DNA from: an uncultured Lachnospiraceae bacterium
GTDB lineage: Bacteria > Bacillota > Clostridia > Lachnospirales > Lachnospiraceae
Length of the DNA stretch: 64,000 nucleotides
Assembly: GCA_944383545.1 (NCBI GenBank)
Contig: CALWPY010000011.1
Location: forward strand, 1-64,000
Reading direction: 5' to 3'
This document shows positions 1 through 58,083 of this stretch, in pieces. The notes beneath the pieces are model-generated. The model did not search any database, had not been told where the DNA came from, and saw nothing but the letters and a program-made list of their open reading frames with translations. The first letter of the stretch is position 1; each line of letters opens with the position of its first letter. Both the position numbers and the translations under genes were made by a program.

Positions 1-303
1 GTGGCATACCCTGTGGTCTCATCTGCGGTTGTTGCGGCATTGGACCTCCCTGCATCTGTGGCATACCCTGCGGTCTCATCTGCGGTTGTTGCGGCATTGG
101 ACCTGCCTGCATTTGTGGCATACCCTGTGGTCTCATCTGCGGTTGTTGCGGCATTGCTCCTCCCTGCATTTGTGGCATACCCTGTGGCCTCATCTGCGGT
201 TGTTGCGACATTGCTCCTCCCTGCATTTGTGGCATACCCTGTGGCCTCATCTGCGGTTGTTGCGGCATTGGACCTCCCTGCATCTGTGGCATACCCTGTG
301 GAT
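1..303 (-). repeat. 57-bp coding tandem repeat, five full units plus a partial sixth
   Basis: Units begin at 1, 58, 115, 172, 229 and 286, an exact 57-base period. They differ by a few substitutions and encode a 19-residue unit rich in Q, P, M and G. The array reaches the window edge, so the total copy number is unknown. The period is a multiple of three, so copy-number changes keep the reading frame. Confidence 0.95.
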
Positions 304-949
304 TCGGCTGGAAATTATTGCTTTGAGCTCTGTTTCTCATAACATCCACTTTATTTACCCTTGTATCCTGCATTGATGCAGAATTAATACTAATTTCTTC
401 CATAATGGTATCTAATACAATATTTACACCATTTACAGAGAAATTATCTGCATTTATTGCATTTAAAATTCTTGCAACATAATTATCTCTGTCTTCTTCT
501 CTAAATTTTATATGTGATAATGCCGTTCTGAAAAATCCTGATATTTCCGATATTTCAATAGCAGACTGTTTTACAGGATTAAGTATACATGTAATCTCCA
601 GATTTTCAGGATTAACAAATATATATTCCAAATCTTTAACGATATAGCTTACAGGAATTCCCTGCTGACCTATTGCAAATGCATTGGTAATTCCATGCAT
701 TAGTTTAAGAGTCTCCGTTTTACTTAACGGACGCCTTATAAACATGCTGAAAGACGGCATCTCAGATATGCTGCTTATTACACTTCTTTTTCCATTGCTT
801 TCAACATATTGAAGTGGTGCTATGCCCGAAACCTGCATAGTCTTCAATTTTTCTATTACTCGTTCATCAATAACTTCCCCAAATTCCAAATCGGAAACAA
901 GTTTTAATAACCCCATTTGTTTTTCAACAAGTATTTTACCGTTCTTCAT
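1..949 (-). CDS. DUF6382-type protein with Q/P/M-rich tandem repeats (3' end outside window)
   Basis: Partial: the gene starts with ATG at 947-949, preceded by an excellent AGGAGGT site, and stays open to the left edge (316 codons visible). The first ~200 residues resemble the N-terminal part of the FHA protein at 2338-4062 (shared pattern PL..., then VSYI/LSYI, then IFVNPENLEI versus MYIDPDNLEI), which I recognise as the DUF6382 family of Clostridia. After about residue 210 it becomes a low-complexity Q/P/M/G tract made of 19-residue repeats (MPQMQGGPMPQQPQMRPQG). Family members often end in an FHA domain, so the missing C-terminus may carry one; that is inference. No signal peptide or membrane segment is visible. 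Probably a cytoplasmic signalling or scaffold protein; function unknown. Confidence 0.8.
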   Translation of the reverse strand, partial: MKNGKILVEKQMGLLKLVSDLEFGEVIDERVIEKLKTMQVSGIAPLQYVESNGKRSVISSISEMPSFSMFIRRPLSKTETLKLMHGITNAFAIGQQGIPVSYIVKDLEYIFVNPENLEITCILNPVKQSAIEISEISGFFRTALSHIKFREEDRDNYVARILNAINADNFSVNGVNIVLDTIMEEISINSASMQDTRVNKVDVMRNRAQSNNFQPNPQGMPQMQGGPMPQQPQMRPQGMPQMQGGAMSQQPQMRPQGMPQMQGGAMPQQPQMRPQGMPQMQAGPMPQQPQMRPQGMPQMQGGPMPQQPQMRPQGMP

Positions 950-20724: not shown

Positions 20725-21968
20725 AAATCGCTCTCCCTGTATATGCCAAGAAGCCCTGCAGAAGCAAGCTTTGATGTATCAGCAAGCTCATTATACTTTA
20801 CAAGTTCTCCCTTTACTTTGCTTCCATAAGGAGCAGTCTCTTCAAATTTATATAACGTATTCAAATTAATTTCTCCGTTTGTCATCCCCATTACCTCACT
20901 TATCTCAATAACCTTTCTTGTCTTATCCCTCATTCTCCCCAAATGAATAATAATATCAAGTGCCGATGATATCTGGCGTCTTACAGCCTCTATCGGAATC
21001 TCCATTCCCATAAGCACCATGGTTTCCAGTCTGAAAAGCATATCCCTCGCCGAATTTGCATGTCCCGTTGAAATACTTCCCGAATGTCCCGTGTTCATTG
21101 CCGAAAGCATATCTATAGCGGCATCATCCCTTACCTCTCCCACGATAATTCTGTCCGGGCGCATCCTAAGACTCGTTTTTATTAAATCCCTTATGGTTAT
21201 TCTGTTTTTCCCCTCTACATTTGCATTCCTTGTCTCAAGCCTTATAAGATTTGAAATACCGTTTATCTGAAGTTCAGCCGAATCCTCAATGGTAATAAGA
21301 CGTTCAGTTTTAGGAATGTATTCCGAAAGCGCATTTAAAAAAGTTGTCTTACCTGCACCTGTACCACCTGAAATAAAAATGTTATATCCGGCTCTCACAA
21401 GAAGATTCAAAAAAAATGATATATCGGGAGTCAGTGCCCCAAGATTTTCAAGCTGTTTCATGTCCATAATCCTTTTGGGGAACTTTCTTATTGTTACCGC
21501 CGGGCCGTCAAGAGAGACCGGGTTTAGCACTATATTTACTCTTGAGCCGTCTGAGAGTGAAGCATCTACAATGGGCTCCGATTCATTTACCCTCCTGTTG
21601 CATCCTGCCGTTATCTGTTGAATCACGGAAAACAGTCTTTCTTCATTTTCAAAACTTTTACCGTATTTGGTTATAATCCCGTTTTCTTCAATATAAATAT
21701 CTCTGTAACCGTTTATCATTATTTCAGAAATATTATCATCATCTATAAGCTCTGATATTACATCAAATCTTCTTATGGAATTAAAAATATCCTGCTTTAG
21801 GCTTACTTTTTCCTTAAGAGGAATATAATTTTTCCCGTCATATTGCATAATACATTTATCTATGGCTTTCTTTACTTCCGAATCCTCAACCTCACCATAC
21901 ATATCGAGCTCGGCCAGCACTGAGTTAATTAAAGTTTCCCGCAAACTGTAGTCACTTTCCGGCAACAT
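20706..21968 (-). CDS. tadA: TadA/CpaF-family pilus assembly ATPase
   Basis: 420 residues. Walker A FISGGTGAGKTTFLNAL near residues 200-210, the Asp box (TIEDSAEL), Walker B (MRPDRIIVGEVRDDAAIDML) and a His box (NTGHSGSISTGHANS) are all intact, with the CpaF-type N-terminal domain ahead. It powers assembly of the Flp pilus from the cytoplasmic side. It overlaps tadZ by 17 bases upstream and tadB by 19 downstream. Confidence 0.95.
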   Translation of the reverse strand: MLPESDYSLRETLINSVLAELDMYGEVEDSEVKKAIDKCIMQYDGKNYIPLKEKVSLKQDIFNSIRRFDVISELIDDDNISEIMINGYRDIYIEENGIITKYGKSFENEERLFSVIQQITAGCNRRVNESEPIVDASLSDGSRVNIVLNPVSLDGPAVTIRKFPKRIMDMKQLENLGALTPDISFFLNLLVRAGYNIFISGGTGAGKTTFLNALSEYIPKTERLITIEDSAELQINGISNLIRLETRNANVEGKNRITIRDLIKTSLRMRPDRIIVGEVRDDAAIDMLSAMNTGHSGSISTGHANSARDMLFRLETMVLMGMEIPIEAVRRQISSALDIIIHLGRMRDKTRKVIEISEVMGMTNGEINLNTLYKFEETAPYGSKVKGELVKYNELADTSKLASAGLLGIYRESDLCSIKS

Positions 21969-22941
21969 TTACCACCGTCCTAATCATTTCTGTTTCTTTA
22001 TAAGTAACATTCGGTACTTCAACGCTTATTATTCTGCTCATAATAAATCTTAAGTCCATATCTTTGAGCAGTTTATAAAACGCCTTAACTTTTACTTCCG
22101 ATTTTATGTCCCTCATAACCGGCATATAAACAGCATTAAATAATTCCAGTATTCTATAATCGCACAGCACGCCTCCTCCTATATCGAATACTATTGTCGA
22201 GAATCTTCCTGACGCCACAAGCAAATCTATAAACCACTTCATGTCATCCCTGTTTAAGTCTTTGAAATCACAAAAAGGTCCTATAGAATTTAACATATAC
22301 AGATTCCCTTCCCTTATCACCGAATCTGATATAACGCTCATCATGTCAGGAATTCTCTCTTTAATATGGTACAAAATATTTACCATACCATACTCCTCAC
22401 CTGAATACTCTTCCATTCCTATATATAAACCGCCTCTCACCTCATCATTTGCAGCTAAAGCCTTTGCAAATTCTGTTTTTCCACTTCTCCCGACAGGTGA
22501 AAATACACATATGCACTCAGCGCCCTTTCTTGGAGACATATCATTTTTAAGTAAAATTTCTTTAATATTCAGAAAAATATCTTCCATGCTCATAAACTTA
22601 AAAATGCTTTTCCCTTTTTTTGAAACACCTTCTTCCATATCTGTTGTGAGATGTATATACCTGACACCGAATAAATACACCTCACCTTTACCGCCGACTG
22701 GAGGGAGGGGGTCGCCCGCAATACCGCATTGCGATTTTATTTCGTGGAGTTCTTTGCTGTCCACAGAATATCCGGACAATATCAGGTCCAATTCATTATT
22801 CTTAAGATAATCATTGACAGCCCTGATACTGGTAAAGGCAACTGCACTAATTACGGGATTTTTTCTTGAATTAATATATTCCATAAACTTTACCGTATAT
22901 ACTGCATCGCTGTCACATATCCCTATCCTGTATTTTTTCAA
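21952..22941 (-). CDS. tadZ: TadZ/CpaE-like protein (receiver-like plus degenerate MinD-type ATPase)
   Basis: 329 residues. The N-terminal ~120 residues look like an atypical receiver domain (YRIGICDSDAVYTVKFMEYI). The rest is a SIMIBI-type fold with a degenerate Walker A (SPVGRSGKTEFAKAL, ~153-167). TadZ/CpaE proteins position the pilus machine at the cell pole. First gene of the Tad operon. Start is TTG at 22941 with AAAGGAGG six bases upstream. Residues ~65-84 are encoded by a GC-rich repeat element (22691-22750) shared with the GtrA-YfhO gene. Confidence 0.77.
   Translation of the reverse strand: MKKYRIGICDSDAVYTVKFMEYINSRKNPVISAVAFTSIRAVNDYLKNNELDLILSGYSVDSKELHEIKSQCGIAGDPLPPVGGKGEVYLFGVRYIHLTTDMEEGVSKKGKSIFKFMSMEDIFLNIKEILLKNDMSPRKGAECICVFSPVGRSGKTEFAKALAANDEVRGGLYIGMEEYSGEEYGMVNILYHIKERIPDMMSVISDSVIREGNLYMLNSIGPFCDFKDLNRDDMKWFIDLLVASGRFSTIVFDIGGGVLCDYRILELFNAVYMPVMRDIKSEVKVKAFYKLLKDMDLRFIMSRIISVEVPNVTYKETEMIRTVVNVAGK
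22691..22750. repeat. Nested-hairpin repeat element inside tadZ
   Basis: Begins CCGCCGACTGGAGGGAGGGG, nearly the same as 27045-27064 in the GtrA-YfhO gene (CCGCCGACCGAAGGGAGGGG), and continues in parallel into GCGATTTT. It contains a six-base-pair hairpin CGCAAT/ATTGCG (22717-22733). The element is read through in frame by tadZ; the shared core is in a different reading frame from the YfhO copy. Confidence 0.7.
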
Positions 22942-25024: not shown

Positions 25025-25053
25025 TTTTACTATAATAATTATTTTCGGTCAAT
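25025..25053 (-). promoter_or_regulatory. Putative promoter of the hybrid histidine kinase
   Basis: On the minus strand TTGACC (25048-25053), 17 bases, TAAAAT (25025-25030). It overlaps the 3' end of the GtrA-YfhO gene. Confidence 0.4.
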
Positions 25054-28000
25054 GTCATAATTGGTCATTTCTTCTATTTTTGTTCTTCTTTTTAGTAATA
25101 ATATACAAAATATAATCCATGATACTGCAGACAGTCCCATTCCCAAAAACAGCCCTTCAGGATAATATATCATTTCTATATTATGACTTCCCTCAGTAAG
25201 GTCAACGGTAAGGAATGCCTCTCCTGCCTCTTTTATCTCTGCACGTTCACCATCAATATATACGCGCCATCCTTTATCATAAGGAATGGAGGTAAATAAT
25301 GTCATGTCACTGTTTACCGTAATATTTCCTTTAATGTATCCGTCATCCCATTCTTCAACATCAAGAGGATATCTGCTTATTTCAGCATAGTATTTCTCAA
25401 ATTCCTCTATATTAAATTCAGAGAGATTTGCCGTTAAAGTTCCATTTTCAGAAAAACCGCTGCTAAAATCAATTTCTATGGTTACTATATCTCCTGCTTC
25501 CAGATTTCCTATATGAAACATCTGCTGCTGATATCTTCCGTCGGTAAGCTCGGTACCGTTTATATAAAATGTCAGCTCTCTCATATAATTTCCGCGAAGA
25601 TTCATATAATAATCACCGGCCTTTGAAACAGTAAATGAAGCCATTATATTCAGACTGTTTTCTGTTGCTCCCGTGTAAGATATCTGTCTTGAATCCGTGG
25701 AGTAAGACACCTGACATTCCGTACCTGATGAAACAGTCATATCAGGTATAGGTACTTCCGTGAAAATATATGATGTGCCCACAGCATAATGGACGAAATT
25801 ATTAAGACATTCCGAAGCTTTCCCCAAATCTCTGTCCCAGTCATATATACTGCTTTCCACTGCGTATGCTATAGGAAGAGTATATTTATTTTCATATACC
25901 TTTACTTCATCTGTCTCCGCTACAAGCTCCATTGTATTTTCTTCTGCAAAATATTCCCCATCTCTTACATAAACATATCTTACTCCAAGCATGGAATTTG
26001 TTACAGGAGTTGCGCCCTTATATAAATATTCATTTGCCGCCGTATAAAAGCCCAGACGTGCCATAACCGTAACCGTATCTCCTCTCACGGTAGAGCAGAA
26101 TGTTCCTACACTTTTCATGTTGTTTAAGGTGGCTTCGTCAAGCATTATCGGGTCTGCGAGTTCTTCACGATAAAATCCATAGTTTTGTTCCTCGGAATAT
26201 TCAGATATGTAACTTACCATATCCTGCATTTCCTCAACGTGCTGCATATAATATCCTATGTCTGCGTTTCCGTTTGACGTAAAACCAAACGCCGCATTTA
26301 CAAGAATTTCCGCCATAAAGAAAACCGAGGTAATAACAGATATTATTTTTCCTTTTACAGCTCCGGTTTTTCTTAAAATGAGCATAGCGGCATAAATCAC
26401 AGCAAGGCCGGACGAAAGAAGTACCATAAGCCAGCCTCTCTCAAAATCACCCGCTTCATACTTGCACAGCAGGAAGAAAGAAATTGTAAGAAATAAGCCT
26501 GATACAATATATGCCGGATGAACTGTCTTAATTCTTCCCACCATCTCATATCCTATATAGAGAAGCACAAAGATATACACAAATGAAAATCTGTTTGGAA
26601 TTCCATACTGGTCATGAAATCCATGCCATATAAAATTTAAAAGCGTGGAATTAAAGCTCACTGCAATAATGGCAAGCAGTATAATTTTTCTTATTCTTTC
26701 AGCCAACGGAATTTTTTCCGTAAAAATATATATGAACAAAAGCAGTATTGTAAAAATACCACAATAAATATTTGCTCCGCCGTCAAAGGTCTGGTTTTTA
26801 ATCGGCTCCGTTAAAAACAGATGTTGTTTTAATATCAAAAATATATTTCCGTACCAACTGTGTTCGGGCAGCCCTGCCTTTGCTGAGGCAGTTGTCATAA
26901 TTGCCAGGTATGATGCGAGAAGGGAAAACGCAGCCATTCCCGCTGAAAGTATCGAAGTTCCTGCAAATAAAAGTCCGTCTGAAAAAAACTTTTTAATATT
27001 TGCAGACACTATCGCAGAGCGATTTTCATGCGTCGAGTCATTTGCCGCCGACCGAAGGGAGGGGGCCACCCGAGACGCCATCGCAGAGCGATTTTCATGC
27101 GTCGAGTCATTTTTATGGCTGTATGCAAGAAACCACAAAACCATAAAAATACATATTATAAATGCAATATAATAATTGCAGTACATACAGTAAAACATGG
27201 AAAGGCAGTAAAGCTTGATATCTCTTTTTTCCATCATCCTTTCAAAGCCGAGGATGATAAGAGGAAATACCATTATACAGTCCATCCACATTATATTCCA
27301 GTAATAACCCACAACATAATTGCTGAGTGCAAATGCCACGGCAAATGCAGTTATATAATAATTATTTGATACCCTGTTTCTTCTCCTTGAAAGATAGTAT
27401 CCGAAAGTCATGGCAGTTATTGTTATTTTTAATGTCGCAATAATTGACATTGCCGCAGGGAGCCCCATTCTGTTGAAAAAAATTATAATCAGATTAATCG
27501 GGCTTGCAAGATAGTACATAAACAGGGACATAAAATTCACGCCAAGTCCTATGTCCCATGTATAAAACATGTTTCCTTCGTTTTTTAGTTTGTCCTGATA
27601 ATCAGAAAAGAAAGGCAGATACTGATGAAGGCTGTCTACTATAGTAAGAGAACGGTCCCCAAACGGAGCCACCCTGCCTATTACCATTACAAAAATCATA
27701 AAGATAAATGTAATCAGTCCCGCAAGAAGCCACGACCTGTTTTTCATCACTCTTTCCCTAAGGCCTCTTTCATCTCCGTTAAAGACAAAAATTTTACTGA
27801 AAACATAATTAATTACTACAACAGCAACCTGCACGCCAATCTTTGCAACAATCTCGTTTATCCTGAAGCTGTCGCACAAAAGGCTCAGTCCGATAACCTC
27901 TACCGCCATTGACACAAGCCTTGCTCCTATAAAGGAGACAAACTCAATTAAAAGCCTCCCCGTACTTCCCGAATGGCTTTTAAAAACAAAAAACTTGTTT

Positions 28001-28179
28001 GCAAAATAAGCAAATGCTATAGCTGCCGAAACAGCTATAACATTACATACATTTCTGCTTATATCCGTAAAATATCTAAGCATAAAGAAGCATACAAAAT
28101 TTACTGCCGTTGTACAGGCTCCTGCTATAAGATATCTTACCTTGTCATTATTTAATAATTTTAGTACCAAATTCCCCAT
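25039..28179 (-). CDS. GtrA-YfhO fusion, large membrane protein
   Basis: 1046 residues. The N-terminal ~140 residues are a GtrA-like four-helix domain (VRYLIAGACTTAVNFVCFF). The rest is a YfhO-type membrane protein with about a dozen helices (GDRSLTIVDSLHQYLPFFSDYQ) and an extracytoplasmic C-terminal domain, then a final helix near residue 1020. YfhO proteins are linked to glycosylation of cell-wall polymers such as lipoteichoic acid; GtrA-like domains are thought to handle lipid-linked sugars. The fusion fits a lipid-carrier glycosyltransfer role at the membrane. Residues ~357-390 are an insertion encoded by a GC-rich repeat element (27011-27112), in a predicted cytoplasmic loop. Confidence 0.87.
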   Translation of the reverse strand: MGNLVLKLLNNDKVRYLIAGACTTAVNFVCFFMLRYFTDISRNVCNVIAVSAAIAFAYFANKFFVFKSHSGSTGRLLIEFVSFIGARLVSMAVEVIGLSLLCDSFRINEIVAKIGVQVAVVVINYVFSKIFVFNGDERGLRERVMKNRSWLLAGLITFIFMIFVMVIGRVAPFGDRSLTIVDSLHQYLPFFSDYQDKLKNEGNMFYTWDIGLGVNFMSLFMYYLASPINLIIIFFNRMGLPAAMSIIATLKITITAMTFGYYLSRRRNRVSNNYYITAFAVAFALSNYVVGYYWNIMWMDCIMVFPLIILGFERMMEKRDIKLYCLSMFYCMYCNYYIAFIICIFMVLWFLAYSHKNDSTHENRSAMASRVAPSLRSAANDSTHENRSAIVSANIKKFFSDGLLFAGTSILSAGMAAFSLLASYLAIMTTASAKAGLPEHSWYGNIFLILKQHLFLTEPIKNQTFDGGANIYCGIFTILLLFIYIFTEKIPLAERIRKIILLAIIAVSFNSTLLNFIWHGFHDQYGIPNRFSFVYIFVLLYIGYEMVGRIKTVHPAYIVSGLFLTISFFLLCKYEAGDFERGWLMVLLSSGLAVIYAAMLILRKTGAVKGKIISVITSVFFMAEILVNAAFGFTSNGNADIGYYMQHVEEMQDMVSYISEYSEEQNYGFYREELADPIMLDEATLNNMKSVGTFCSTVRGDTVTVMARLGFYTAANEYLYKGATPVTNSMLGVRYVYVRDGEYFAEENTMELVAETDEVKVYENKYTLPIAYAVESSIYDWDRDLGKASECLNNFVHYAVGTSYIFTEVPIPDMTVSSGTECQVSYSTDSRQISYTGATENSLNIMASFTVSKAGDYYMNLRGNYMRELTFYINGTELTDGRYQQQMFHIGNLEAGDIVTIEIDFSSGFSENGTLTANLSEFNIEEFEKYYAEISRYPLDVEEWDDGYIKGNITVNSDMTLFTSIPYDKGWRVYIDGERAEIKEAGEAFLTVDLTEGSHNIEMIYYPEGLFLGMGLSAVSWIIFCILLLKRRTKIEEMTNYDIDRK
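27011..27112. repeat. GC-rich nested-hairpin repeat element inside the GtrA-YfhO gene
   Basis: Two identical 33-base copies (27011-27043 and 27080-27112, start ATCGCAGAGCGATTTTCATG) lie 69 bases apart, with the core CCGCCGACCGAAGGGAGGGG (27045-27064) between. Each copy holds a hairpin ATCGC-AGA-GCGAT; the right copy is enclosed by an outer stem GACGC/GCGTC. Because 69 is a multiple of three the reading frame is kept, giving NDSTHENRSA twice in the protein. Related sequence occurs in tadZ and at 58037-58083. Confidence 0.85.
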
Positions 28180-57985: not shown

Positions 57986-58083
57986 CAATGCGACGCGCTC
58001 ATTTCACATCACCAATCCGCAGGATTTATGATGCACGCACAGCGCCATCGCGCGCGACTTTCATGCGCTGTGCTCATTTTATC
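57986..58083. repeat. Tandem nested-hairpin repeat elements between degV and the dehydrogenase gene
   Basis: Two consecutive nested hairpins. First: CATCA/TGATG (58007-58011 with 58029-58033) enclosing AATCC-GCA-GGATT (58014-58026). Second: GCACAGCGC/GCGCTGTGC (58037-58045 with 58065-58073), nine perfect pairs, enclosing a self-complementary TCGCGCGCGA (58048-58057). Stretch 58044-58083 aligns with 27078-27118 (GCCATCGC...GCGA.TTTCATGCG...TCATTTT). No gene; the gap 57929-58142 is otherwise AT-rich. Confidence 0.8.

Follow-up and report, generated by a model that had tools for sequence, protein, structure and literature searches.

The segment that lies within the GtrA-YfhO gene of an uncultured Lachnospiraceae bacterium is one copy of a dispersed repeat family, which occupies about 25 loci of the same type (type 1) in the genome (G000; 2.26 Mb in 23 contigs). 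We consider it likely that the segment derives from a non-autonomous, dispersed and structured repeat that was inserted into the YfhO gene and then duplicated in tandem. The window, i.e., the whole stretch of 64,000 nucleotides that was analyzed, comes from contig C11 of this genome.

The gene that carries the insert (25039-28179, minus strand; ORF list and Pfam) encodes a GtrA-YfhO fusion protein of 1046 aa with clear Pfam matches (YfhO, E 2.3e-138; GtrA, E 3.4e-21). On the basis of the sequence and the homologue alignment, the whole insert was placed at 27002-27112 on the plus strand, and its ends can be moved by up to 4 bp because ATTT flanks both sides (26998-27001 at the left edge, plus strand, as well as 27040-27043 and 27109-27112). 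It consists of one full 69-bp unit and one partial unit, arranged on the plus strand as partial unit, ATTT, full 65-bp unit, and ATTT. The partial unit (27004-27043, plus strand; model positions 31-62, 20.8 bits) holds hairpin A only, with its ATTT. The full unit was matched by the covariance model at 27043-27111 on the plus strand with 86.9 bits, and comprises hairpin B (27044-27066, plus strand), with invariant G-A steps, followed by hairpin A (27071-27106, plus strand). The stretches 27004-27043 and 27073-27112, spaced 69 bp apart, share 95% identity across 40 nt and contain an exact 33-mer (27011-27043 and 27080-27112). Several elements of the initial annotation thus hold, namely two identical 33-base copies 69 bases apart, an unbroken reading frame, and a composition unlike the AT-rich surroundings (64% GC in the full unit versus 37-41% in three surrounding 2-kb blocks). 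Its estimate of about 34 added residues needs to be raised to 37 (residues 358-394; 111 bp), and its 69-bp duplication is accurate as to the length of the unit (65 bp plus ATTT) and not as to the first copy, which is the second hairpin of the unit alone. The ATTT flanks may represent a 4-bp target duplication, in the window copy only. In an AlphaFold model of YfhO built with 28 sequences, residues 359-382 of the insert had pLDDT values below 50 (mean 83.7). A 57-bp tandem array at the start of the window (1-367) showed no visible relation to the repeat, and a tRNA was the only Rfam match at gathering cut-off across the window.

Homologues of the host protein were represented by the best 80 of 466 relatives, 79 of which were aligned. 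The insert columns were empty in 77 of these 79, as the initial annotation had anticipated, and the remaining two (L094 and L134) carried unrelated residues there. In a second set, 52 of 60 genomes had a match to the host protein; among the matches listed, none spanned the insert, and those that reached it ended at ~349-362 or started at ~392-408. The flanks align as SHK-N-IKKFF versus SHK-x-IKKFF, and therefore 37 residues were gained and none lost. These comparisons indicate that the YfhO segment is an insertion, missing from the homologues examined.

Further copies in the genome, also expected by the initial annotation, were recovered both by BLASTN (37 matches, self and overlapping pieces counted) and with the covariance model, R1 (75 matches at E<=1 and 52 at E<1e-4, with 150 of 374 candidates scored). 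The first 57 R1 matches were sorted by type, leaving six unsorted and one not fetched. Among the 57, the window unit (type 1) accounted for 32 matches at 24 loci, and a sister unit (type 2), which has a different first hairpin followed by the same kind of hairpin A, for 18 matches at 16 loci. By eye, one unsorted match is a nested type 1 (C1:61983) and two are type 2 (C22:1 and C11:58026), bringing the totals to ~25 type-1 and ~18 type-2 loci. The window itself holds a second, diverged type-1 copy (22689-22754, plus strand, 42.9 bits), which lies antisense within ORF 21952-22941 (minus strand) and keeps its frame, and a type-2 copy (58026-58077, plus strand, 29.4 bits) with no long ORF across it. 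Type-2 copies were also observed at or near contig ends (C3:248483-248545, C5:154939-155001, C12:23-85, and C22:1-32), where they probably broke the assembly, so that copy numbers are lower bounds. Tandem type-1 pairs, the window pair included, have a period of 69 bp in six of seven cases and of 74 bp in the other, as read from coordinates. Since some of these pairs lie outside genes, the 69-bp period is a property of the unit and not of coding.

A structural alignment of 16 units from 11 loci (15 distinct rows) showed that the unit is made of two separate hairpins, B and A. Hairpin B has a constant frame (GCC-G-CC-GA ... GA-GG-G-GGC), and its first pair is G-C in nine and T-A in six of the 15 distinct rows, with no exceptions. 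The consensus hairpin A has an outer stem of eight pairs, an inner stem of five, and an unpaired stretch on the 3' side; two outer pairs of the window copy are G-A. The 3' foot of the hairpin is variable (GAGTC, TCGTC or GCGTC). Pairing was found in 94.6% of the cells of the real alignment versus 84.4% in shuffled and 31-50% in slid controls, the slid control being biased toward the structure because it was drawn with the sequences already in view. Compensatory changes, with both sides altered, affected 10 of the 20 pairs, and RNAalifold returned from the same alignment 16 pairs, all contained in the hand-drawn set. No pairing between the ends of the unit was predicted. The window unit folds with an unremarkable energy (z of -0.72 and -0.01 for the two strands), and the second window copy gave a z of +1.08.

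The initial annotation knew of no named family with this sequence; a named relative does exist in GA-cis (RF02987), which appears in the Rfam 15 paper. Its gathering score of 34.7 bits was reached nowhere in G000. Specifically, the GA-cis model matched the window unit partially, at hairpin B (24.4 bits), and four type-1 tandem junctions over its full length (25.5-29.9 bits); its best score in the genome, 33.7 bits at C16:13993, fell on a different module. That module forms a tandem array (C16:13993-14162; L037/L044) with GA-cis scores of 33.7 and 29.5 bits, and is absent from the R1 matches. The hairpin frame of GA-cis is present in the window-type unit, and the order of the Rfam model, A then B, is seen across tandem junctions only, as single copies run B then A. 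In the reverse search, 26 R1 matches were listed outside G000, and the four examined, in G002, G129, and G406 (two), coincided with independently found RF02987 matches. Moreover, an above-cut-off GA-cis contains a stretch (G002:C64:51408-51434) that matches hairpin B of the window with 96% identity over 27 nt. Within the family, 6 of 120 genomes carry GA-cis above its cut-off; a draw of 391 genomes from the class gave three, each of them a member of that family. The likeness thus lies in the same two hairpins with G-A steps; the window-type copies differ in scoring below gathering, in being numerous, and in lying partly within genes. We class the window unit as a relative of GA-cis and not as a member.

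Interrupted units reveal nesting within hairpin loops. Among type-1 units, the added piece measured 84 bp in all seven placed cases (six units). It lies in the loop of hairpin A in four (C5:20785, C16:1934, C16:1772, and C12:2208, after consensus position 42-43; loop 43-45) and in that of hairpin B in two (C1:27343 and C1:61983, after position 11; loop 12-14), and a second piece at C1:61983 falls in hairpin A, where the aligner puts it at 39. C1:57019 looks similar by eye, lacks the second half and was not placed, and C5:75482 is truncated inside the piece. The nested copies are related, so that independent insertion events are few. A counter-example is provided by C9:79257, where a type-2 unit appears, by eye, to lie within an internal and not an apical loop.

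A comparable arrangement was found in G106, from another genus of the same family, which has 20 GA-cis matches and a long dispersed palindrome (54 pieces matched). The apex is closed in two palindromes (L272 and L275), and seven (L267-L271, L273, and L274) have an extra apical hairpin; in six of these, ACGT borders the hairpin left and right. GA-cis occupies the apex of that extra hairpin at L039, L042, L045, and L051; at L053, the search gave no match. Side by side, L039 (1330-1665) and L267-L275 look like an apex filled stepwise, first closed, then with a hairpin, and then with GA-cis. At the L039 locus, the sibling species G406 and G422 retain both flanks and lack the element (E<=1); G424 has matches on both sides, the right one starting far from the site, G421 has a match on the left only, and none was obtained for G423.

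Type-1 copies lie in frame within ORFs at six loci, the YfhO gene of the window included. The others are a GH3 glucosidase (C4:99231), PheT (C9:18602), an ORF with a glutathionylspermidine-synthase domain (C1:381911), an ORF with no Pfam match (C20:713), and the window ORF 21952-22941, which has a weak TadZ-like match only (20.1 bits, below cut-off). In the GH3 protein, the insert is flanked by two blocks that align with PDB 5k6l (query 493 | 544, chain 473 | 476), the PDB chains aligned to PheT have a shorter loop at the insert position, and no PDB relative was found for the ORF with the glutathionylspermidine-synthase domain. Other copies are less clean: the one at C16:35313 holds a stop and divides two ORF pieces, the one at C1:4199 sits between ORF pieces in different frames that apparently belong to one gene, and those at C5:1862 and C17:32585 supply the end of a gene. 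The surroundings of C1:4199 and L189 look like a duplicated gene region with pieces in different frames. Across the 15 distinct units, 66 of 90 frames were open versus 60.2 +/- 3.4 after shuffling, and 16 of 300 shuffles reached a value as high. This weak excess, together with at least two intragenic copies that are not clean, does not favor coding compatibility by design as the main reading; the compatibility is mostly a by-product of composition. This mixture of clean and broken copies therefore looks like chance events filtered by selection.

The compensatory changes and the invariant G-A steps would also suit the rival reading suggested by the name GA-cis, a regulatory RNA acting in cis that was copied because it regulates many genes and that functions within genes too. 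Consistent with such a role, most of ten GA-cis copies in G129, G076, G002, G137, and G029 lie just before or between genes of the same strand. The copies in G000, however, run in both directions and inside unrelated genes, two of them appear to break an ORF, and five of the six in-frame copies are antisense to their gene. The YfhO copy is one of these: its structured strand runs opposite to the mRNA, so there is no need to postulate an RNA function in this transcript. Likewise, the copies in G106 occur on either strand relative to their neighbors and within the dispersed palindrome. We therefore regard a regulatory RNA as improbable.

Under the preferred reading, insertion of a mobile repeat, the unit would be copied in trans by a transposase or another nicking-joining enzyme that recognizes the hairpins formed by the strand bearing the G-A steps. 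It would land in DNA rich in A+T or inside another hairpin's loop, and slippage or unequal exchange might then generate the 69-bp tandem. Copies within genes would survive only if their length is divisible by three, they are read through without a stop, and the added peptide forms a loose loop at the surface. With a single genome of the genus covered, no movement of type 1 itself was observed. Across 13 type-1 loci, no consistent target duplication was detected (longest-match sum of 17, a value also reached by 16% of re-pairings, versus 11.5 for re-paired flanks); for the window copy, the left flank was taken on the assumption that the first unit lost hairpin B. The search for a mobilizer covered two transposase families, PF01797 and PF00665, and yielded neither a mobilizing enzyme nor an autonomous relative. 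PF00665 matched one IS3-like rve-type element (C1:360551; region L278) with no R1 match nearby; the ORF that precedes it resembles, by eye, a truncated carbamoyltransferase. Carriage by phages or plasmids found no support either. The full unit had no match at E<=0.01 in phage and plasmid collections, and a degenerate hairpin-B pattern hit 10 viral stretches, about the chance number by a rough estimate, with no GA-cis at gathering and a best R1 score of 22.9 bits versus 76.7-93.5 for the 19 best units of G000.

REP sequences share the bulged hairpins, the dispersal, and the intragenic copies (PMC3733652), and the repeat could be of the REP kind, mobilized by a RAYT (Y1) transposase since lost or hidden in an assembly gap. 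However, Y1_Tnp (PF01797) had no match in G000 in a search that was positive in 5 of 14 control genomes, and the variable 3' foot keeps no invariant GTAG or CGTC tag. In addition, the words Firmicutes and Clostridi are absent from the main text of PMC3733652. This origin is thus very unlikely. The insert could also have arisen within the YfhO gene alone, by local expansion or as an assembly artefact with no link to a repeat family. The tandem copies, and several type-1 or type-2 copies at contig ends, would fit this idea, but it is already refuted by the dispersed copies, with the unit on many contigs, the often shared tandem period and the compensatory changes, and deserves almost no credence.

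As for known systems, the initial annotation likened the insert to coding-compatible palindromic elements. The comparison stands in that the repeat is dispersed, GC-rich, structured, in frame, and absent from homologues; it fails in that there are two hairpins with no end-to-end palindrome, no consistent target duplication, and a compatibility due mostly to composition. Rickettsia palindromic elements (RPE) are likewise dispersed, structured, and in frame in conserved protein genes, and are described as stem-loops of 105-146 bp with terminal inverted repeats (PMC2229807), whereas the unit here measures 65-69 bp and has another sequence, in another phylum. In-frame copies in unrelated conserved genes, as in RPE, were found here; a single long stem-loop with terminal inverted repeats at its base was not. 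REP and REPIN sequences are also short dispersed hairpins that form tandem groups, some in coding regions (PMC3733652); the repeat differs in the tag not being kept and in the Y1 transposase not being found, and CGTC REPs are said to be without a RAYT transposase too (PMC3733652). The repeat therefore resembles RPE or intragenic REPs in behavior and falls outside the definition of either. As regards MITEs, the window copy has ATTT on both sides with no consistent duplication over the 13 loci, terminal repeats were inspected by eye, and the one rve-type IS that was inspected for shared ends had no R1 match near it. Finally, IS1397, ISKpn1, and IS621 also place a mobile sequence inside a palindromic repeat (PMC1525189), but in those cases the invader is an IS with its own transposase, whereas here both invader and host are small gene-less modules.

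Both in-frame insertion of palindromic repeats, by RPE and others (PMC2229807) and by intragenic REPs (PMC3733652), and the targeting of palindromic units by IS elements (PMC1525189) are already known. A search by title and the start of abstracts, in mostly non-subscription literature, returned no paper on the repeat family, none that treats GA-cis as mobile DNA, and none on nesting step by step in hairpin loops.

More speculatively, GA-cis and its relatives could be not ordinary regulatory RNAs but mobile modules of Lachnospiraceae that lack genes, form hairpins, and together make up a superfamily. Such modules would prefer the apical loops of existing hairpins, make palindromes grow in a nested fashion, and land occasionally in frame in genes. 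We hold this broader proposal only tentatively, and somewhat doubt it; if true, it would call for an enzyme able to join structured single-stranded DNA to the loops of hairpins. The presence of empty and filled hairpin loops in one genome makes loop-targeted insertion directly testable. If the mobile reading is right, RNA motif searches restricted to intergenic DNA could mistake repeats for regulators. GA-cis, a named RNA family of unclear role, gains a testable reading as mobile DNA, and the repeat supplies an example, from the Lachnospiraceae, of conserved genes, PheT among them, that tolerate selfish insertions.
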